Positions 239 to 12,193 of a DNA stretch of 64,000 bases are shown here, piece after piece. Position numbers and translations under genes: made by a program. The DNA is from Lacrimispora indolis DSM 755. Its GTDB lineage: Bacteria; Bacillota; Clostridia; Lachnospirales; Lachnospiraceae. Position 1 is the stretch's first letter, and each line of letters opens with the position of its first letter. Location: contig NZ_AZUI01000001.1 in assembly GCF_000526995.1 (NCBI RefSeq), positions 6,056,001-6,120,000 of the forward strand. Reading direction: 5' to 3'. A model generated the notes under the pieces. The model saw only the letters and a list, made by a program, of their open reading frames with translations, searched no databases and was not told where the DNA came from.

Positions 239-2557
239 TTATCCTGCATTCATAATATTAACAATGCTCATTTTTTCGATCTTCTTAGTTGGTGAAATCA
301 CCGCGATAAAGGTTGTTAGGATCGCGGCTAAAATGACAGCAGTCAAAACCACAAGCGGCGGCTGCCAAAGCTCTCCCCAATTGGATGTTATCAACATTCC
401 GAAGAAGAAACGGTGTAAAATTAGTCCTAAAATTCCTCCCGTCAGGCTGCCGGATATAGCGTAAGCAGCAGCCTCAGCCGTTACCATTTTTTTAAGCTGT
501 TTACCTGACATGCCCACTGCACGCATCATGCCATAGTTGCCAATACGACTGGAAACACTTGCGTTTACCGTGTTGATAATATTGATTAAGGCAACGAGTG
601 CAATGACCATCAAAAATCCATATACAAATACTGCCATTGCGAGATAACTTGTGCGTACCTCGCTGTTATGTTGCTGAAAATCCAGCAGTTTCATTTCCGG
701 TGTAATCAGACTTCTGACCTGACCGGAAATGTCCTGCTTAACCTGTATATCAATAATTTTATAACAATCTACCCCGGTTAAGGCTGTAAATGTGTTTTCT
801 GAGCAAAGAATAATCCACTCGCCATTAGCTGAATCAAGGGGAACATCGGAAACAATACCGGCAACCTGTACCTCATGCAGCTTTCCGTTCATGTTCAGCG
901 TAATCGTATCGCCAATCTGCCAATTAAATTCCTGTGAATACCCGTAATCAACCAATACACCGTTTCCGTTTTTAACATTTTCAATACTGCCGGTAATAAG
1001 CGAATCTTCTGCCCACGCAAATTGAGGCTCGTCATAGGAAACCAGTGTGGCCGTATTGGTATCCCGTTTGTCGCTTGCAGGAATGTCTGTGTAAAACATA
1101 CGTCCATAGATATTCTCTATATGAGGAAGTGCATTTATTTCTTCTTTGAGTGAACGTTTAAGCAGAACGGTATCCTGGGTTCCCTCGATGGATAAATCAG
1201 GCGCATAAGGCTTCAACGGATTTAACGCATGGTTCATAAAGGTAATTAAGATTGAAAAGCACAAGAACAGGACTATGCTGATTGCAAAAGAACCCGCAAT
1301 CAACACCATGCTCTTTTTATTGGAAAAAGCGTGGCGAACACCCATTGCGGTATCTACGTGAAGCATTCTTGTGTTTGACGCTCTGTTTATTTGCAAATTA
1401 TTGGTTTTATTGATATTGCCCGTTACAGCAGCTTGAGGAGATACCCTGGCGGCTTTTTTTGTGGGAGATTTTGAAGCAAGCAAAACAACCAGGAAGCCCA
1501 TTATAATTCCCGAAGCCATACCAATCCAGCTGATCTGGAACATTGGCATTTCAGGAAGATATTCCGAGTTCAGCCTGTTTAAAAAAAAGAGTGCTGTCCA
1601 CAATATAACACATCCGGCCAATAATCCGATAGGTATTCCTTTTATACAATACTGAAGTCCCTCAAGTCGGATATATCGTTTGATTTGCTTTTTGGTTGCT
1701 CCAAGACAGCGCAGCAATCCGAAAAATTGTGTCCTTTCCAAAATGCTCATGCTAAAGCTGCTGGCAATCATGAATGTACCTGTCATTGTCACAAGAATAA
1801 ATAAAATTGCAGCTGTAAGATAAACTTCTAACACAGTGGTGTCATTGCTCTGTCCCATTAGGCCAAGTAGCATGGCATTTGTGGAAACCTGTTTATCAGT
1901 CAGACCATATTCCGCTTTGATTTCCGAAAGCGCCTGATTGATATTTACACCGTTTTTGAATTGAATGTAATCATACTCTTGATATAGTTCAGACGGAAGC
2001 GTACGCATTCCAGCAGTTGACAGCTGTAAACCGTGAGCGTCCGTACCTTGCAGGCTAGAGAAATCACCGTAGATTCCAGTGATTTTATACTGCCTTGCCT
2101 TTCCGTCAGAAAAATCAATTTCAATTGTGTCACCAATGGAAAGACCAAACTGTTCAAGACCCTGACTGTCAAGCAAGGCTTCTTGCTCCGATTCAGGATA
2201 ACGTCCATCAGAAACAACCAAATTCATTTGTTTCGCAAGCTCTTCGCTGCTGCTCTGAACAATAAGTTCCTTTCCCTGATATGTTATCGCATCAGCCATA
2301 CCCAAAAAACCGGATACATTGATATCACCGCGACTGTCTATGGAGGCTGCTGTATCGTCTGAAATATCTGAAACAATAGCGTGCCAGTTACCATACCGGC
2401 GTATCGATTCATTAATTTGGGATTTCAGGCTCATATCGGCCATACCGAAAATAGCTGTTACCAGCATGACGGATATGGCAATACATATTACAGTCAGCCT
2501 ATTTTTCTTTTTATGTACTTTTGCATATTCTGAAACAAGACCAAGATAGCTGTTCAT
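239..2557 (-). CDS. FtsX-family ABC transporter permease
   Basis: This is a 772-residue integral membrane subunit of an ABC transporter with the duplicated FtsX/MacB-type layout. One helix lies near the N-terminus (about 20-40), followed by an extracytoplasmic domain. The first FtsX block is at about 245-365, a second extracytoplasmic domain follows, and the last FtsX block is at about 640-760. A motif of the form LRCLGATKKQI follows the first helix of block 1, and MRAVGMSGKQL occupies the matching place in block 2. Its start codon overlaps the ATPase stop (ATGA, 2554-2557), so the two are translationally coupled. Pairing with an adjacent kinase/regulator resembles peptide-antibiotic or envelope-stress exporters of Firmicutes. 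The substrate is unknown. Confidence 0.9.
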   Translation of the reverse strand: MNSYLGLVSEYAKVHKKKNRLTVICIAISVMLVTAIFGMADMSLKSQINESIRRYGNWHAIVSDISDDTAASIDSRGDINVSGFLGMADAITYQGKELIVQSSSEELAKQMNLVVSDGRYPESEQEALLDSQGLEQFGLSIGDTIEIDFSDGKARQYKITGIYGDFSSLQGTDAHGLQLSTAGMRTLPSELYQEYDYIQFKNGVNINQALSEIKAEYGLTDKQVSTNAMLLGLMGQSNDTTVLEVYLTAAILFILVTMTGTFMIASSFSMSILERTQFFGLLRCLGATKKQIKRYIRLEGLQYCIKGIPIGLLAGCVILWTALFFLNRLNSEYLPEMPMFQISWIGMASGIIMGFLVVLLASKSPTKKAARVSPQAAVTGNINKTNNLQINRASNTRMLHVDTAMGVRHAFSNKKSMVLIAGSFAISIVLFLCFSILITFMNHALNPLKPYAPDLSIEGTQDTVLLKRSLKEEINALPHIENIYGRMFYTDIPASDKRDTNTATLVSYDEPQFAWAEDSLITGSIENVKNGNGVLVDYGYSQEFNWQIGDTITLNMNGKLHEVQVAGIVSDVPLDSANGEWIILCSENTFTALTGVDCYKIIDIQVKQDISGQVRSLITPEMKLLDFQQHNSEVRTSYLAMAVFVYGFLMVIALVALINIINTVNASVSSRIGNYGMMRAVGMSGKQLKKMVTAEAAAYAISGSLTGGILGLILHRFFFGMLITSNWGELWQPPLVVLTAVILAAILTTFIAVISPTKKIEKMSIVNIMNAG

Positions 2558-3237
2558 TGGGTATATCCCCCTAGATCTGTGAGAACACCGTCCGACACTT
2601 GCAGCACACGGTCAGCCGCAGAAGCAATGCTCCGGTTATGAGTAATCATGATAATTGTCTGCTGATAGCGTTTAGACGCTGTTTTTAAAAGCGATATAAC
2701 CTCACTGCTGTTTTGGCTGTCCAGATTTCCGGTCGGTTCATCTGCAAGAATCAGCATAGGACGGGTAATCAAAGCACGTCCTATGGCTACCCTCTGCTGC
2801 TGACCGCCGGATAACTGCCGTGGCAGGTGATTCCGCCTGTCCTTCAAGGACAACACAGCTAGAATTTCCTCTACATAAGCCTGATCCGGCTTTTTATAGT
2901 CCAGCAGAACGGGAAATGTAATGTTCTGCTCCACATTAAGTTCCGGTATCAGATTAAACGCCTGAAAAACAAAACCAATGTTTCTGCGGCGAAAGATAGT
3001 AAGCTTTTCATCTTTCATGCTGAATATATCATTGCCGTCAATTAACACCTTGCCGGAAGCAGGAGTGTCCAGTGCACCGATCATGTTAAGCAATGTGCTT
3101 TTTCCGGAGCCGGATTCCCCTATAATGGCAGCAAATTCTCCTTTAGGAATCGAAAAGCTCACATTCTTTAGTGCATTGACCGCAGCTTCACCTGTACCAT
3201 AGGTTTTGCTAATTGTTCTCACTTCTAATAAATCCAT
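2554..3237 (-). CDS. ABC transporter ATP-binding protein (MacB/LolD class)
   Basis: This 227-residue nucleotide-binding subunit partners the downstream FtsX permease. All motifs are intact: Walker [10 protein letters not shown] near residue 40, Q-loop (VFQAFNL), signature LSGGQQQR near 141, Walker [12 protein letters not shown] and the switch histidine in MITHN. Length and motifs fit the MacB/LolD/BceA group. The start is supported by AAAGGTG upstream. It is the third gene of a minus-strand unit ordered regulator, kinase, ATPase, permease; about 100 bp separate it from the kinase gene. Confidence 0.92.
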
Positions 3238-3336
3238 ATCTTATTACACCTTTCCAGGCAGTTACGATTCATTACGTTTTTATAACTGCCTAAGGATACG
3301 CTAACATCTGCACCTTACTCCCACATGAATTTCCGC

Positions 3337-4374
3337 TTACATCTTAGTAAGGTTAAGAAAATTCATAACAAATATGCTTCCTTTACCTAATACACTGTCC
3401 ACTGTGATGGTACCGTCATGTGCTTCCACGATTGTTTTTGCAAGAGGCAGTCCAAGGCCAATTCCTTGCGTATCCTTTGAAAAGCGGCTGCGGTAAAACC
3501 GCTTAAAAATATGGTGTATATCTTCAGGGTGTATGCCGCTTCCATTATCCTTTATGGTTATCTGTGTGACAGACGGGAGTTTTTTCCACTCAATTGTAAT
3601 CTGACTTCCTGCGTTCGTATGGTCGAGTGCATTTTTTACAATGTTACTAATAGCTTCTATGATCCAATCTCTGTCACAAAAAAGCCGGGTGTCATCTGGC
3701 CCTGACAAGGTAATAATTTTCTTTTCCCCTTTGGCACGAAATTCAAAATGCTGATAGATATCATTTATCATATTTTCTACACTTTCAGGTGCTTTTTTTA
3801 TAATAATAGCCCCTGCGTCCAGCTTCGTGATTTTCAAGAGGCTTTGAACAAGCATTTCAATCCGCTCAATCTCTTTCTCTGATTTTACTGCAAATTCCTT
3901 TACCGCGGCAATATCTTCTGTTTCATCTTGTAACAGACTGTTGTAAATCGTGAGAGCGGCAAGGGGTGTTTTTAGCTGATGAGAAATATCAGAAATATTA
4001 CCTTTCAAAAACTCTTTTAGTTTCTGTTCTTTTACTGTATGAGCATTGAGTACTGTAGCCAATGTGTTGACTGCATGGAAAAGCTTATACAGACTGCCTT
4101 CCTTATCGCAATCAATTCGGATATCCGTATTCCCTGAAAGGAATAAATTGATTTTAGATATGGCTTCTTCCATAATCTGATTTTGCTTACGAAAATAAAG
4201 AAAGCAAACGCCTAAAATACACAATGCAGCGAACAAAGACAGCAACAGTATGACAAGGTTCCATGTGCCGTAAAACAGCCATATTAGTAACTGAAATAAA
4301 AGGATAAAACCGCCCAATATACACGATATTGCAATAAAAAAATTTCTAATATCCGTATTGGTAAAAATCTTCAC
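3337..4374 (-). CDS. Two-component sensor histidine kinase
   Basis: This 345-residue membrane kinase begins at GTG (4374) behind a GAGGTG site. Two N-terminal helices (about 11-32 and 38-60) are joined by a very short loop, so it has almost no extracellular sensor. The HisKA box DISHQLKTPL carries the phospho-acceptor His near residue 132. The ATPase domain shows NIVKNALDH (N box), DNGSGI (G1) and GIGLGLPLA (G2). Lack of a sensor domain together with an adjacent FtsX transporter resembles BceS-type kinases that sense through the transporter. This is an inference, because BceS members are usually shorter in the linker. Confidence 0.9.
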   Translation of the reverse strand: MKIFTNTDIRNFFIAISCILGGFILLFQLLIWLFYGTWNLVILLLSLFAALCILGVCFLYFRKQNQIMEEAISKINLFLSGNTDIRIDCDKEGSLYKLFHAVNTLATVLNAHTVKEQKLKEFLKGNISDISHQLKTPLAALTIYNSLLQDETEDIAAVKEFAVKSEKEIERIEMLVQSLLKITKLDAGAIIIKKAPESVENMINDIYQHFEFRAKGEKKIITLSGPDDTRLFCDRDWIIEAISNIVKNALDHTNAGSQITIEWKKLPSVTQITIKDNGSGIHPEDIHHIFKRFYRSRFSKDTQGIGLGLPLAKTIVEAHDGTITVDSVLGKGSIFVMNFLNLTKM

Positions 4375-4383
4375 CTGCCCACC

Positions 4384-5070
4384 TCAATTCAATATATTCC
4401 ATTTGTACCCCATACCCCTGACGGTCAGCAGCATTTGCGGTTCACCCGGATTGTTTTCTATCTTCATTCTTAGCCTGCGAATATATACCGCTAATGTATT
4501 ATCGTCCACATAGCTGCCCTCACCGTCCCATAGCTTATCCAGAATTTTTTCTTTGGATAATATGATATTGGGATTTTGCATAAGCAGGCAAAGCAGCCGA
4601 TACTCGGCTTTTGTCAAATCCAAAAGCCGGTTGTCTTTATACACTTGTCCTTGCAGCAGCAAAACTTTTATTCCATTGGATATTATCTCTGTATCTGTCG
4701 TTCCAAAGTTCTTTGCTCTCCGAAGCAACGCGTTAATTCTCGATATGAGAACACCTAATTTAAAGGGTTTGGTTATATAATCGTCACCCCCGATATTAAG
4801 TCCTGAAACGATACTTATTTCTTCATCTGACGCAGTTAAAAAGATAATCGGCACTTTGGATACCTGACGCACTTTTTGACATACTTCAAACCCGGAACCG
4901 TCCGGCAGAGACACATCCAGGATCAATAAATCGTATTTACCGTCTGTCCAAATGGTATTGGCTTCTCTAACGGTTCGAGCAATATCCAATTCAAAACCCT
5001 GTCTTTTTAGCAAACAGGAAAGCCCATCAATCAGGCTTAAATCATCTTCAAGAAGTAACATCCTATTCAT
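4384..5070 (-). CDS. OmpR-family response regulator
   Basis: This 228-residue regulator has an N-terminal receiver domain (acidic pair LLLEDD near the start, phospho-acceptor Asp in LLILDVSLPDGSG, conserved Lys in ITKPFK) and a C-terminal winged helix (KAEYRLLCLL, then VYIRRLRMKIE). The ATG at 5070 is preferred over an in-frame ATG at 5094 because AAGGAG lies 7 bases upstream of it. It is the first gene of the operon with the kinase (10-bp gap) and the ABC exporter, which it probably controls. Confidence 0.9.
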   Translation of the reverse strand: MNRMLLLEDDLSLIDGLSCLLKRQGFELDIARTVREANTIWTDGKYDLLILDVSLPDGSGFEVCQKVRQVSKVPIIFLTASDEEISIVSGLNIGGDDYITKPFKLGVLISRINALLRRAKNFGTTDTEIISNGIKVLLLQGQVYKDNRLLDLTKAEYRLLCLLMQNPNIILSKEKILDKLWDGEGSYVDDNTLAVYIRRLRMKIENNPGEPQMLLTVRGMGYKWNILN

Positions 5071-5195
5071 TATTTTGCTCCTTTGTCCGTCCATCTTTAG
5101 GTTTTTCTATATTGGCTGGAATAAGCCATTTTCCCCCGGCCTCTTTCACTGTTAAAAATACCATGTAAGCACCGTCTTTTTACAGATATGCTTAT

Positions 5196-7253: not shown

Positions 7254-7289
7254 GGAAATCAATCAGAGGCATGCCTCTAATTGATTTCC
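7254..7289 (-). terminator. Terminator of the pst-phoU operon
   Basis: A 36-bp palindrome with a single mismatched pair, centred on GGCATGCC, overlaps the last codons and stop of phoU. On the minus strand it is followed by TTTC. It probably ends the operon; its overlap with the coding sequence is a little unusual. Confidence 0.6.
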
Positions 7290-7939
7290 TTTAACTCACC
7301 TGTAATCATGTATATGGTTCTTTCACATATATTTGTAGAATGGTCGGCGATTCTCTCAAGATACCGGCCTAAGAACAGAAGTTTAGTGCCTTGTTTTGTA
7401 AGTTCTCTTTTTTCTGTGATAATGTTAAGGATATCATTTATAACGGTTTCATAGAGCCTGTCAACATCTTCGTCCCTCTCCGCTGCCTTTTCTGCAAGGG
7501 CAATATCCTCATTTACAAAGGCATCAAGACTCATTTTTAACATTTTCTGAGCAATATCTGCCATACTTGGAATATCTTTCAGGGAATTCATAATGGGTTC
7601 TTCGCCAATCTCAAGTATTACCTCTGCAATGTTTACTGCATTGTCTCCCATTCTTTCAAGATCTGTTATGATTTTCAGAACCGATGCAATTGTCCTTAAA
7701 TCCTTGGCGAGAGGCTGCTGAAGGGCAAGAAGCATCATACATTCCTGTTCAATTTCAAGTTCCAACTGATCTATTTCATCATCTTTCTTCAAAACAATCC
7801 TTGCAAGTTGAAGATCTTGTGTCTTTAAAGCAGTCACTGCCGTATCAATAATATTCTCAACCAGGGCTCCCATTTTTAATACCTTTTGCTTAACGTCAAG
7901 TATCTTCTGTGTAAAACGTTCTCTAACCAAAATGCTCAT
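7277..7939 (-). CDS. phoU: Phosphate transport accessory protein PhoU
   Basis: PhoU is the cytoplasmic metal-binding helical-bundle protein that links Pst transport to the PhoR/PhoP system and restrains phosphate uptake. The 220-residue product has the duplicated three-helix layout, with matching motifs ERMGDNAVNIAE (first half) and ERIADHSTNICE (second half), each carrying the metal-coordinating acidic/polar cluster. Size is normal for the family. It is the last gene of the pst operon, 35 bp after the second pstB. Confidence 0.95.
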   Translation of the reverse strand: MSILVRERFTQKILDVKQKVLKMGALVENIIDTAVTALKTQDLQLARIVLKKDDEIDQLELEIEQECMMLLALQQPLAKDLRTIASVLKIITDLERMGDNAVNIAEVILEIGEEPIMNSLKDIPSMADIAQKMLKMSLDAFVNEDIALAEKAAERDEDVDRLYETVINDILNIITEKRELTKQGTKLLFLGRYLERIADHSTNICERTIYMITGELKEIN

Positions 7940-7974: not shown

Positions 7975-8736
7975 TCAACCAAATCTTCCGGTAAGGTAAT
8001 CGTTGGTTCGATTATCCTTTGGGAATGAAAAAACCTCTTGGGTATAACCTTGCTCTATTAAATCTCCCATTAGCATGAATGCAACCCGGTCAGCAATGCG
8101 CCCAGCCTGCTGAACGGTATGCGGTGCAATGATAATGGTGTATTGCTCCTTAAGCTGTATTAAGGATTCCTCAATTTTGGCCGTTGATATTGGGTCAAGA
8201 GCTGAACAGGGTCTGTCCAGCAAAATAACCTCCGGCTCAAGAGCCAAAACCCTGGCAATACACAAGCGCTGCTGCTGACCACCGGATAACCTGGCCGCAG
8301 GAGTATCCAGCCTATCTTTGACGTCATCCCAAAGGGCAGATATCCGCAGAGCCTTTTCTACTTCCTCTGCCACAGCCGACTTGGTTTTTATTCCACCCAT
8401 ACGGGGGCCCAATGCCACATTATCAAAGATGGACATAGGAAGAGGTGTTGGTACATCAAAAACCATCCCTACCCTGCGGCGCAGTTCTGTCACATTAACA
8501 TCCGGGTCAAAGATATTTTTCCCATCTAAAAGTATCTCACCCTCCTGACGGGCACCCACAGTCAAGTCGCTCAGACGGTTTAATGTGCGGAGCAGTGTTG
8601 TTATACCACTGTTGGCCGGACCAAAAACAGCCATAATCCGATTTTTAGGTATCTCCAGGTTCAGTTCTTTAATAACCTGCTTTTGTTGATAATAGAAGTT
8701 TAATCCTTTTATCTCTATTTTTGATTTCTGTATCAT
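7975..8736 (-). CDS. pstB: PstB-like ABC ATPase with degenerate ATP site
   Basis: This 253-residue PstB paralogue in the phosphate operon is very probably catalytically impaired. Walker A reads GPANSGITT: Ile replaces the essential Lys. The Q-loop reads VFDVPTPLP, with Asp for Gln. Walker B reads VILLDRPCSALDP, with Arg for the catalytic Glu. The signature LSGGQQQR and the switch His (APHTVQQA) are kept. Reading frame, length and ribosome site (AAGAGGTG) are normal, so this is not a pseudogene. It would supply its intact signature to the ATP site of the first PstB. Whether both PstB proteins occupy one transporter is an inference. Confidence 0.88.
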   Translation of the reverse strand: MIQKSKIEIKGLNFYYQQKQVIKELNLEIPKNRIMAVFGPANSGITTLLRTLNRLSDLTVGARQEGEILLDGKNIFDPDVNVTELRRRVGMVFDVPTPLPMSIFDNVALGPRMGGIKTKSAVAEEVEKALRISALWDDVKDRLDTPAARLSGGQQQRLCIARVLALEPEVILLDRPCSALDPISTAKIEESLIQLKEQYTIIIAPHTVQQAGRIADRVAFMLMGDLIEQGYTQEVFSFPKDNRTNDYLTGRFG

Positions 8737-8746
8737 TTTTCACCTC

Positions 8747-9583
8747 TTAACGGCCCTTCGCTATGAATCGATTGACCAGCATATTAAAACCAACATTAAG
8801 CAGAAGAATAAGAATAATCAAGAGCGCTGCTGTTCCATAAGCGTTATCCATGGATATTCCCTCCCTCGCCAGTATATAAAAATGTACTGCCATGGTTCGA
8901 GTTGGGGAGAAGATTGATGCAGGCATACGCAATGCTGAGCCGGCTGTTAAAATAACGGCAGCTGTCTCGGCTACACATCTCCCTATGCTCAAAATCACTC
9001 CATTTACTATACCAGGGAGTGCTGATGGAAGTACTGTTCTGGTTATTGCCTGCCACTTAGTGAGTCCCAAAGAGAAGCCTACCTCCCGGTATAGCTGCGG
9101 CACAGTACGAATCGCCTCTTCTGATGTACGTATAATAGTAGGAAGAATCATGATAGCCATGGTTAATCCGCCGGACAAAATTGACCAGCCCATTTTTAAG
9201 TATATGACAAAGAAGATAAAACCAAAAAGTCCATATACAATGGAGGGTATGCCTGCCAGGGACTCGGCACTGAAACGGATAATGCGGGTGACTTTGCTCT
9301 CCCGTGTGTACTCCGTAAGGTATATAGCTGTTCCAATTCCAAATGGTGTTGCAACAATAACGGCTACTGCAGTCACAATCAGAGTACCGACAATGGAAGA
9401 GGCAATACCCCCGGAACGGCCCATATCCCGCGGAATATCCGTTAAAAACTGCCAGCTGAGCATAGGTATTCCCTTGACTAATATATGAATAATGATAGAA
9501 AAAAGAATTGCAATAACAAGAAGAGCAGCTGTCCAAATTAAAAATTTTGCTATCTTTTGGGAAGATTTCGGGTTAATTCTCAT
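8747..9583 (-). CDS. pstA: Phosphate ABC transporter permease PstA
   Basis: This 278-residue inner-membrane permease forms the phosphate channel with PstC. It has about six helices, the first at about 12-34 and the last near the C-terminus. The loop SLGLTKWQAITRTVLPSALPGI is the EAA-type ATPase contact. The start at 9583 is chosen because GAGGTGAGG lies just upstream and because a longer frame (to 9625) would run into pstC. It is followed after 10 bp by the degenerate pstB. Confidence 0.93.
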   Translation of the reverse strand: MRINPKSSQKIAKFLIWTAALLVIAILFSIIIHILVKGIPMLSWQFLTDIPRDMGRSGGIASSIVGTLIVTAVAVIVATPFGIGTAIYLTEYTRESKVTRIIRFSAESLAGIPSIVYGLFGFIFFVIYLKMGWSILSGGLTMAIMILPTIIRTSEEAIRTVPQLYREVGFSLGLTKWQAITRTVLPSALPGIVNGVILSIGRCVAETAAVILTAGSALRMPASIFSPTRTMAVHFYILAREGISMDNAYGTAALLIILILLLNVGFNMLVNRFIAKGR

Positions 9584-9590
9584 AGTAACC

Positions 9591-10436
9591 TCACCTCTTT
9601 CGTGTGATGTATTGGGCAGTAGCATTTAAAATCATGATAATGACAAACAGTACAATACCTGTGGCAAAAAGCGCCTGCTGGTGTTCGCCAGATGCATATC
9701 CCATCTCAATACCAATATTCGTGGTCAGTGTCCTGACAGGGTCAAGAACTGATTCAGGAAGTGCGACAGCATTACCCAGAACCATAATCACCGCCATAGT
9801 CTCACCAATTGCCCTGCCTAAACCTAAAATTACGGCAGCAACAATACCCGATTTAGCCGCAGGTAACAGCAGTGAACATATGGTCTGCCAATGTGTCAAC
9901 CCTAATGCAAGCGCTCCATCTTTATAATGGCGCGGCAGCGCAAGGAGAGATACTTCGGTGATGCTGATGATCGTTGGCAGGATCATAATACCCAAAATGA
10001 TGGAACCGGCCAATATGCTTAACCCCGGCCCTCCCAGGTAATTACGTATCATTGGTACCACGAACAATACTCCCCAAAACCCATATACCACGGAAGGTAT
10101 GGCAGCCAGCAACTGGATGGCGGGTCTGAATATGTTTCTAAGCTTTGCAGGAGCAAACTCAGCCAAAAAAATACTGCAGCAAATGGCAATGGGAACTCCC
10201 AGGATTGCTGCTCCTAAAGTGACCGATACAGATCCCACTATCATCGGGAAAATGCCATAGGCACCTTGGCTGGGAGCCCATTTCATACCAAAAACAAAGT
10301 TTATTATGCCAACCTCGGCAATAATAGGGATACCTTTTATAAATATAAACACAGTAATGAGCGCCAGCACCGATAAAGTCGAAAGAGCGATTAGTAGAAA
10401 CACTCGTTCAGATAATTTTTCCTTGAAACTCTTCAT
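9591..10436 (-). CDS. pstC: Phosphate ABC transporter permease PstC
   Basis: This 281-residue permease partners PstA. It has six predicted helices beginning at about 12-34, the PstC-type motif IPSVVYGFWGVLFVVP, and an EAA-type loop (ALGLTHWQTICSLLLPAAKSGI). Its start overlaps the pstS stop by four bases (10433-10436), so the two are coupled. Confidence 0.93.
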   Translation of the reverse strand: MKSFKEKLSERVFLLIALSTLSVLALITVFIFIKGIPIIAEVGIINFVFGMKWAPSQGAYGIFPMIVGSVSVTLGAAILGVPIAICCSIFLAEFAPAKLRNIFRPAIQLLAAIPSVVYGFWGVLFVVPMIRNYLGGPGLSILAGSIILGIMILPTIISITEVSLLALPRHYKDGALALGLTHWQTICSLLLPAAKSGIVAAVILGLGRAIGETMAVIMVLGNAVALPESVLDPVRTLTTNIGIEMGYASGEHQQALFATGIVLFVIIMILNATAQYITRKR

Positions 10437-11281
10437 TTCCCTGCCCCCTCTGCTGAAGGAATAAGTCCTTCATTGCTCAGTAACTTTTGCCCCTCTGAAG
10501 AAAGGGTAAAATCTATGAATCTCTTCTCTAACCCGGTCGGCTCACCGTTAGTGACAAACAAAAACTGCCTGGACAGTCTGTAGCTGCCATTCATTATATT
10601 TTCTCGTGTCGCTTCGATACCATCTAAATGCAAAGCCTTCACTTTATCCGTAACCAGACCCAAAGAGATAAATCCTATGGCATTAGGGTCATCCTCAACC
10701 AATTGCCGTACCGCCCCATTGGAGTCCTGGACGATAGCTTTCGGGGTTATCTCTTCTTCACCCATCAACAGCTCCGTAAAGGCACTTCTTGTACCTGATC
10801 CTTCTTCACGCGCTATGATATTGATCTTTGACTTTGAGCCTCCCAATTGACTCCAGTCGGTAATTGCAGCTGCGTAAATATCGCGGATCTGATCTGAAGT
10901 AAGGTTTTGTATTGGATTCTTAGGGTTCACTATTAATACCAATCCATCCTGAGCAATTTCTACATTCCACAGATTTTTCTCCTCATCTTTTAATGCACGG
11001 GAGGACATTCCAATATCAGCACTGTGTGTCTTGGTTGCCGTAATACCTGCCGAAGATCCTCCGCCCTGGATATCAATCACAGCGTCAGGATTTAAAACCA
11101 TATACTCTTCCGCCAGAATCTCAGCATAGGGTTGTACAGAAGTTGAGCCTGCAACAATCGCAGCTGAGCCAGGCGCCTGGCTGCAGGCAGTCATCATACC
11201 CATGGAAAGGGTCAATATCACTACGCTGACAAAACCTCTTATCCGTCTTAATAATTTGCATGTTACAATCTTTTTTCTCAT
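10433..11281 (-). CDS. pstS: Phosphate-binding lipoprotein PstS
   Basis: This 282-residue extracellular phosphate receptor anchored as a lipoprotein captures phosphate for PstCA. The signal peptide ends in a lipobox-like MTAC at about residue 33. Phosphate-contact motifs are present: AGSTSVQPY, GGGSSAGI and AREEGSGTRSAF. The start at 11281 gives a normal signal peptide; an upstream TTG at 11299 is the alternative, and neither has a strong ribosome site. Unusually, the ATPase gene precedes it in the operon. Confidence 0.93.
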   Translation of the reverse strand: MRKKIVTCKLLRRIRGFVSVVILTLSMGMMTACSQAPGSAAIVAGSTSVQPYAEILAEEYMVLNPDAVIDIQGGGSSAGITATKTHSADIGMSSRALKDEEKNLWNVEIAQDGLVLIVNPKNPIQNLTSDQIRDIYAAAITDWSQLGGSKSKINIIAREEGSGTRSAFTELLMGEEEITPKAIVQDSNGAVRQLVEDDPNAIGFISLGLVTDKVKALHLDGIEATRENIMNGSYRLSRQFLFVTNGEPTGLEKRFIDFTLSSEGQKLLSNEGLIPSAEGAGK

Positions 11282-11395
11282 ATGTCTCACAAAAATCAAA
11301 CATTAAAATCATCAGCTACGATAAAATTCTAATGTTTGATTTCCTCCATTTCTCAGAATATATTAAAGAACTGCAAGTTCACCTTTTATAAATCT

Positions 11396-12193
11396 TTATC
11401 CAAACCGACCTGTAATGTAGTCCTCTGTGCGTTTATCCTTAGGATTAGCGAAAATTTGTGCTGTTGGAGCGTATTCAACCAACGTCCCCGCCCTATCAGG
11501 ATCCATCATCATAAACGCAGTCATATGAGACACCCTTGCTGCTTGCTCCATACTATGAGTTACAATAATAATCGTATATTTTTGAGCCAGCTCCTCCATT
11601 AACCCCTCAACCTGCATTGTAGATTCCGGATCAAGAGCACTACAAGATTCATCCATTAACAAAACCTCAGGCTCCACAGCCAACGCACGGGCAATACATA
11701 AACGCTGCTGCTGGCCCGGAGAAAGATCAAAAGCAGATTCTTTCAATTTGTCCTTAACTTCGTCCCATAAAGCCACCTGGTTCAAGTTCCTCTCCACAAT
11801 CTCATCAAGACGAGCTCTTTGTTTTATTCCATGATGCCTTGGACCAAAAGCCATATTATCATACACTGACATGGGAAAGGGATTAGGTTTTTGAAAAACC
11901 ATACCAACTCTTTTTTTAAGTACAACAACATCCATATTCTTATCATAGATAGAAACACCATCAAGCATAATTTCCCCCTCTACCCTAACTCCTGGTATTG
12001 GGTCATTCATACGATTAAAAAGACGCAGAAGAGAAGATTTACCGCATCCCGACGGCCCAATTATGGCTGTAATAGCACATTCCGCAATATCCATTGTAAC
12101 ATTCCTCAGAGCTTGGAAATTGCCATAAAAAAGGTTTACCGCATCTGTTTTTATCTTGGCTCTTTGCCCAGGTTTTAACATTAGATCATCCAT
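11396..12193 (-). CDS. pstB: Phosphate ABC transporter ATPase PstB, altered signature
   Basis: This 265-residue ATP-binding subunit has a complete catalytic set: Walker [11 protein letters not shown]-loop [10 protein letters not shown], Walker [14 protein letters not shown] and switch His VTHSMEQA. Its signature is altered: LSPGQQQR, with Pro for the usual first Gly. That is the half-site that would face the dead Walker A of the second PstB. It is the first gene of the operon, about 115 bp before pstS, with PhoP-type repeats 140-165 bp upstream of its start. Confidence 0.93.

Follow-up and report, generated by a model that had tools for sequence, protein, structure and literature searches.

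Complementary motif lesions in two PstB ATPases suggest an asymmetric phosphate importer in Lacrimispora indolis and distant bacteria

ATP-binding cassette (ABC) proteins work as head-to-tail dimers, in which each ATP site takes its Walker, Q-loop and H-loop residues from one subunit and its signature motif from the other. A phosphate-transport operon of Lacrimispora indolis DSM 755 raises the question of how such a dimer can be built from two ATPases that are both damaged. The operon lies in a stretch of 64,000 nucleotides (contig NZ_AZUI01000001.1, positions 6,056,001 to 6,120,000), here called the window, and is read from the minus strand in the order pstB1-pstS-pstC-pstA-pstB2-phoU, both PstB genes sharing it with pstS, pstC, pstA and phoU. 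We propose that it encodes a Pst phosphate importer whose PstC and PstA permeases are driven by an obligate heterodimer of PstB-1 and PstB-2, in which one site is catalytic and the other degenerate, a reading to which we would give, from the motifs of the two proteins and their relatives, a probability of about 0.85.

Motif lesions and their partition between two composite sites

Motif reading assigns the lesions of the two proteins, all on the minus strand, as follows. PstB-1 (11396..12193) retains the Walker A Lys (motif at 12032..12058), the Q-loop Gln (VFQKP, 11885..11899), the catalytic Glu of Walker B (LLMDE, 11648..11662) and the H-loop His, and its signature is LSPGQ (11711..11725), the third residue having changed from Gly to Pro. 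PstB-2 (7975..8736) has a Walker A GPANSGITT (8596..8622) with Ile for Lys, a Q-loop VFDVP (8449..8463) with Asp for Gln, and a Walker B ILLDR (8212..8226; LLDRP when read one residue on) in which the catalytic Glu is replaced by Arg and the Asp is kept. Its signature LSGGQ (8275..8289) is intact, and APHT replaces VTHN in the H-loop, so that His is retained and Pro-His (8119..8124) stands where canonical PstBs have Thr-His. The three catalytic losses of PstB-2, the two signatures and the 35-bp gap between pstB2 and phoU had been given correctly in a preliminary description of the window made from its letters. The two proteins are 49% identical; neither combines Lys, Gln and Glu with LSGGQ, since PstB-1 has no LSGGQ and PstB-2 none of the three catalytic residues, and they do not form a tandem of the Enterococcus type with intact motifs in both ATPases. 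A third PstB, encoded at 1.32 Mb of the same genome, has all motifs intact and is 60% identical to PstB-1 and 54% to PstB-2.

In a heterodimer, the Walker motifs of PstB-1 and the LSGGQ of PstB-2 would form one complete, ATP-hydrolysing site, and the Walker motifs of PstB-2 and the LSPGQ of PstB-1 a non-hydrolysing one. Neither homodimer should work, because a PstB-2 dimer would be without catalytic residues and a PstB-1 dimer would carry two broken signatures; it is from this complementarity that we infer heterodimer assembly. As in Pdr5, the work would fall to the complete site, and the dead one would most likely hold nucleotide or never open during the cycle. Nucleotide binding there is favoured because every one of 49 PstB-2 proteins has the aromatic residue of the A-loop (Tyr in 38, Phe in 11), the Ser/Thr of Walker A and the Asp of Walker B; occupancy of the dead site and hydrolysis at one site only would then be the expected working state.

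These 49 proteins, counted at one locus per genome, come from genomes with a PstB lacking the Q-loop Gln, which is how we defined PstB-2. In 41 of these genomes the stretch encodes another PstB as well; the closest was taken as the partner, and the resulting linked pairs come from Bacillota, Chloroflexota, one Syntrophaceae metagenome-assembled genome (MAG) and one MAG of the PVC (Planctomycetota-Verrucomicrobiota-Chlamydiota) group. All 41 pairs are damaged in the composite site to which PstB-2 gives the Walker motifs and PstB-1 the signature: PstB-2 has lost Gln in 41 (by definition), Lys in 30, Glu in 30 and His in 2, and the PstB-1 signature is altered in 39. By comparison, none of 205 positions has changed in the opposite site (Lys, Gln, Glu and His of PstB-1, and positions 2-5 of the PstB-2 signature). 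Hence 142/205 altered positions in the degenerate site stand against 0/205 in the other, and every pair consists of two unequal nucleotide-binding domains (NBDs) with lesions in one composite site only. Thinning to 22 PstB-2 lineages (<80% identity) leaves Gln altered in 22, the signature in 20, Lys and Glu in 17 each and His in 1, with 0 changes in the other site. The preliminary description had claimed that the losses all sit in one site and had named a failure of the two genes to co-occur as grounds for abandoning the idea; the count bears out the former, and the linked pairs are the opposite of the latter. The two losses of the H-loop His occur in L221 (5881-6654, minus strand) and L054 (8001-8759, plus strand), which read VPQS and VTNN.

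In PstB-1 the altered signatures are of 14 different types among 41 proteins, some of them severe (LAVEQ, LPLDQ, LALRQ, LSAGA). The PstB-2 signature is SGGQ at positions 2-5 in 49/49 (48 LSGGQ, 1 ISGGQ). Arg replaces the catalytic Glu of PstB-2 in 30 of the 41 pairs, as it does in the window; the other 11 retain Glu. All 35 Lys-less PstB-2 proteins carry this Arg together with an acidic (Asp/Glu) Q-loop residue; where Lys and Glu are both present, the Q-loop residue is acidic in only 2 of 14.

As controls we used 123 distinct PstBs encoded at loci whose genomes had yielded no PstB-2. Lys, Gln, Glu and His are retained in all of them, and so is SGGQ at signature positions 2-5 (108 LSGGQ, 11 MSGGQ, 4 ISGGQ). 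An altered signature, which by the preliminary description would have told against the idea if common without such a partner, thus occurs in 0/123, and this control excludes chance as the cause of the lesion pattern. Nine Chloroflexota genomes provide natural controls, with two adjacent PstBs that are both intact, and PstB1 and PstB2 of Enterococcus faecalis have intact motifs as well (PMC12096839). A tandem pair by itself is therefore insufficient for the asymmetric state.

Several observations weigh against an obligate heterodimer with complementary lesions. The 41 linked pairs are related by descent and hence non-independent, so that Fisher tests on them overstate the evidence. Eight PstB-2 genomes, G645 among them, have no linked partner. 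In line with the proposal, four of these (G642, identical to G300, and G737, G745 and G777) encode a signature-altered PstB on another contig, reading LSPGQ, LALGQ, FSLGQ or LSIGQ, and three (G633, G665, G819) cannot be judged, the stretch stopping at a contig end with no partner on it. Moreover, three genomes (G637/L019, G639/L021 and G645/L027) have a fully dead PstB-2, and all other PstBs read in them are LSGGQ: the linked partner in G637 and G639, a third PstB (C175) in G637, and the sole other PstB-grade match, which is intact, in G645. No hidden partner with a broken signature was found in these three, further weak matches in G639 (C98) and G645 (C69) being below PstB grade. Among judgeable genomes, 43/46 thus have a signature-broken partner and 3/46 are exceptions, so that signature loss is not obligatory; the Walker lesions of PstB-2 alone would, however, still give one dead and one complete site. 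Finally, a search with TIGR00972 found a further PstB-grade ATPase in 17 of 23 distinct genomes, the window genome included, which could in principle pair with either subunit; in favour of the pair, the other 6 gave no PstB-grade match beyond it, although MAGs among them may be incomplete. As a separate observation, a PstB with the signature LSRGQ in G643 (L145, L241 7654-8448, plus strand) stands as the only PstB of its stretch, and its genome also has a PstB-1/PstB-2 pair.

Distribution, phylogeny and selection

A scan of GTDB genome contigs with PstB-2 gave at least 573 confirmed relatives, of which the best 80 were kept. At the top of these (to ~60% identity) the order is mostly pstB1-pstS-pstC-pstA-pstB2-(phoU), or pstB1 follows pstB2, and the loci come from Lacrimispora, other Bacillota, Dehalococcoidia, other Chloroflexota MAGs and a Syntrophaceae MAG; lower among the 80, the same lesions occur in one PVC MAG and one Anaerolineales MAG. 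The closest named relative among the matches listed is Lacrimispora amygdalina, whose PstB-2 is 91% identical. The preliminary description had proposed co-occurrence across Lachnospiraceae as a check. The system is rare in the family, where a lesioned PstB-2 was read in 2 of 299 sampled genomes (best 30 matches examined), but of 25 genomes of the genus 14 have a match of PstB-2 level, all 14 of them lesioned, and the spread crosses phyla. The corresponding figures are 2/341 genomes for the class of the window, with four other above-threshold matches intact, 7/295 for the order to which the L018 genome belongs, and at least 11/121 for Chloroflexota (best 30 matches examined). Since a profile of four deep PstB-2 sequences failed to separate other PstB-2 from canonical PstBs, membership was judged by motif in the loci read and not by score; genomes with unread matches may hide more deep PstB-2 members. 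Three Chloroflexota loci (L218, L219, L220) have a canonical pst operon next to the pstS-pstC-pstA-pstB2 block, and the signature-broken PstB is encoded between the two in the opposite orientation.

In a PstB tree built with the motif columns masked, a single branch (support 100/99) sets the 34 PstB-2 rows apart from all others. The deep PstB-2 proteins (most Chloroflexota, the Syntrophaceae MAG and the PVC MAG) have lost Gln and kept Lys and Glu, two of them being also without His, and their linked partners are already signature-broken. In the Bacillota-Dehalococcoidia clade, Lys and Glu are lost as well. The signature-broken PstB-1 proteins (without L145), a group picked by its motif, are not one clade (approximately unbiased test, p 0.0027), and therefore the signature must have been broken, or the partner exchanged, on more than one occasion. 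PstB-1 of the Bacillota-Dehalococcoidia clade groups with the PstBs of L187 and L189 (100/93), the sole matches in two Chloroflexota genomes, and the basal Dehalococcoidia partner retains LSGGQ. A simple story would be a single loss of Gln in PstB-2, followed in one branch by replacement of the partner with a fresh PstB and by renewed signature decay, and much of the backbone of the tree is poorly resolved. When pstA and pstC of these operons were tested as clades, they took 2 and 3 changes, respectively, which is still compatible with a single origin.

PstB-2 is under purifying selection. Its reading frame is a constant 253 amino acids across the 14 genus genomes, and the median ratio of nonsynonymous to synonymous substitution rates (dN/dS) over 91 pairs of these genomes is 0.042 for pstB2, compared with 0.039 for pstB1, 0.029 for pstC, 0.052 for pstA, 0.106 for pstS and 0.086 for phoU, values obtained by a simple count method with synonymous sites near saturation and with some pstB1, pstC and pstA sequences shortened at their start. 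An AlphaFold2 (AF2) model of PstB-2 predicts an intact ABC fold with confidence (mean pLDDT 93.3, pTM 0.91), and its best PDB matches are the E. coli PstB structures 9k3s and 9k3x. The partition found in 41/41 pairs supports the initial interpretation, the dN/dS and the predicted fold speak against decay, and the recurrence of the pairing with matching damage in distant bacteria suggests an asymmetry that is maintained.

Alternative explanations

The alternative that fares best accepts the heterodimer and concerns its origin, and can thus hold together with the asymmetric importer. It states that after the loss of Gln in PstB-2 the signature of the partner was dispensable and drifted, with no functional gain, and we regard it as a serious contender at somewhat under even odds. 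The variety of altered signatures in PstB-1 resembles relaxed constraint, and the losses are graded, Gln being lost in all PstB-2 and Lys and Glu only jointly in one subclade, at the base of which sit the intact-signature partners. Such drift fits less well with PstB-2 itself, which is conserved as a whole and whose substitutions look constrained, each Arg of the Lys-less proteins being accompanied by an acidic Q-loop residue, with the caveat that this Arg possibly has one origin. These same substitutions prompt a more far-reaching, tentative idea that we think rather doubtful, namely that the degenerate site has been rebuilt into a charge-swapped pocket, with a possible internal salt bridge and one side permanently closed, so that one ATP would be spent per phosphate instead of two. 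The correlation between the acidic residue and Arg could reflect one event, because Arg may have arisen only once.

A second alternative dispenses with the heterodimer: PstB-1 would dimerize with itself and work in spite of LSPGQ, leaving PstB-2 as a dead pseudo-ATPase with a regulatory role, such as docking PhoU or signalling phosphate. For this speaks that phoU (7277..7939, minus strand) lies directly 3' of pstB2 in the window and in many relatives; likewise, the paired PstBs of E. faecalis are unequal, one being required and the other accessory (PMC12096839). Against it, the PstB-1 signature is altered in 39/41 pairs, often severely, and in 0/123 controls, and a PstB-1 homodimer would carry this damage in both of its sites. 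Furthermore, the SGGQ kept in all 49 PstB-2 proteins would be useless to a subunit that does not dimerize as an NBD. We hence consider a purely regulatory PstB-2 unlikely.

Equally improbable, in our estimate, is that the system imports a substrate other than phosphate. The further PstB-grade ATPase in 17/23 genomes might leave this copy free for another oxyanion, but no other PstB was found in the remaining 6, and each of pstS, pstC, pstA and phoU scores above the cut-off of the NCBIfam phosphate-system model of the same name. On the minus strand, these are the phosphate-binding protein gene pstS (10433..11299; TIGR02136, 233.5 bits, cut-off 206.6), the permease genes pstC (9591..10436; TIGR02138, 296.9 bits, cut-off 196.45) and pstA (8747..9625; TIGR00974, 284.2 bits, cut-off 193.45), and phoU (TIGR02135, 220.5 bits, cut-off 130.25). 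PstB-1 exceeds the curated cut-off of TIGR00972 (385.8 vs 343.2 bits), and PstB-2, with 341.0 bits, falls narrowly under it, TIGR00972 being still its best NCBIfam model. Lastly, that PstB-2 is a decaying pseudogene, as the loss of three catalytic residues might suggest, is rejected with near certainty by its constant frame, low dN/dS, presence across phyla and confident predicted fold.

Two features in and near the operon may be added. The interval between pstB1 and pstS contains a predicted stem-loop followed by a U-run (11295..11340, minus strand), attenuator- or processing-like in appearance, which is predicted, in long and short versions, in 13 of 13 genus loci holding both genes; Rfam gave no match within the window, this element included. 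Through attenuation or processing of the transcript, it may set the amount of PstB-1 apart from that of PstS, PstC, PstA and PstB-2. The TTG listed as the beginning of pstS (11299) falls within the stem-loop; the ATG at 11281, downstream of it, is the likelier start. A neighbouring module (239-5094, minus strand) encodes an FtsX/MacB-type permease, an ABC ATPase, a histidine kinase and a response regulator; we take it to be Bce-like, and not obviously a PhoPR pair.

Known asymmetric ABC systems and significance

A close likeness is found in PDR-type fungal exporters, in which largely the same positions are altered in one composite site. In Pdr5, the deviant site has Cys for the Walker A Lys, Asn for the catalytic Glu and LNVEQ as the partner signature, the other site being complete, and it holds ATP in spite of the first two changes (PMC7756269, PMC8421411). 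Pdr5 differs in being an exporter with NBDs and transmembrane domains fused in a single polypeptide, whereas the Pst system would use separate soluble NBDs in a binding-protein-dependent importer, and its H-loop His, mostly kept in PstB-2, is altered (PMC7756269).

A degenerate site paired with a catalytic one, on unequal NBDs, is also described for TAP, TM287/288, BmrCD, PatAB and CFTR, all of which are exporters or, in one case, a channel. The degenerate site of heterodimeric exporters and CFTR usually retains the Walker A Lys, which is lost from PstB-2 in 30/41 pairs. The preliminary description had called such asymmetry well known in exporters and CFTR and rare in importers; the first part stands, while the second has to be set beside importer cases on record, since RbsA and NupO have a second Walker A without Lys and at least one deviating signature (PMC11466899). 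They share with the Pst system being importers with a degenerate site, and differ by having two NBDs in one chain and by being listed as type II importers of other substrates (PMC11466899). For E. coli DppDF, considered as a further candidate for a degenerate importer, nothing more was found than a supplementary alignment with a degenerate-site protein.

Two pstB genes per pst operon are shared with E. faecalis (PstB1/PstB2) and B. subtilis (PstBA/PstBB), and the B. subtilis complex has been modelled with one copy of each (PMC11466899); the window differs in that its two genes flank pstS-pstC-pstA. Canonical E. coli PstSCAB (PDB 9k3x, 9k3s) agrees in fold and operon content, and differs in that, by alignment, its PstB has all motifs intact within one protein. 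Neither an asymmetric Pst system nor a PstB whose ATP site is degenerate was apparent in the titles and abstract openings of the open-access literature searched, and no PstSCAB cryo-EM paper naming PhoU was found there.

If our reading is true, the one-active-site design of exporters and CFTR also exists in a nutrient importer whose NBDs are separate subunits, the lesions being split over two genes that stand at opposite operon ends. As both homodimers are expected to be non-functional, the system would provide a clean test of the role of the second ATP site and of whether one hydrolysis per cycle suffices. The graded series, from loss of Gln only to additional loss of Lys and Glu, with partner signatures broken or intact, would be a natural record of asymmetry arising. 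Furthermore, the label PstB can conceal a subunit that is probably incapable of ATP hydrolysis. Many members were found in groups that are largely anaerobic and low in energy, which a cost of one ATP per phosphate, if true, would suit.

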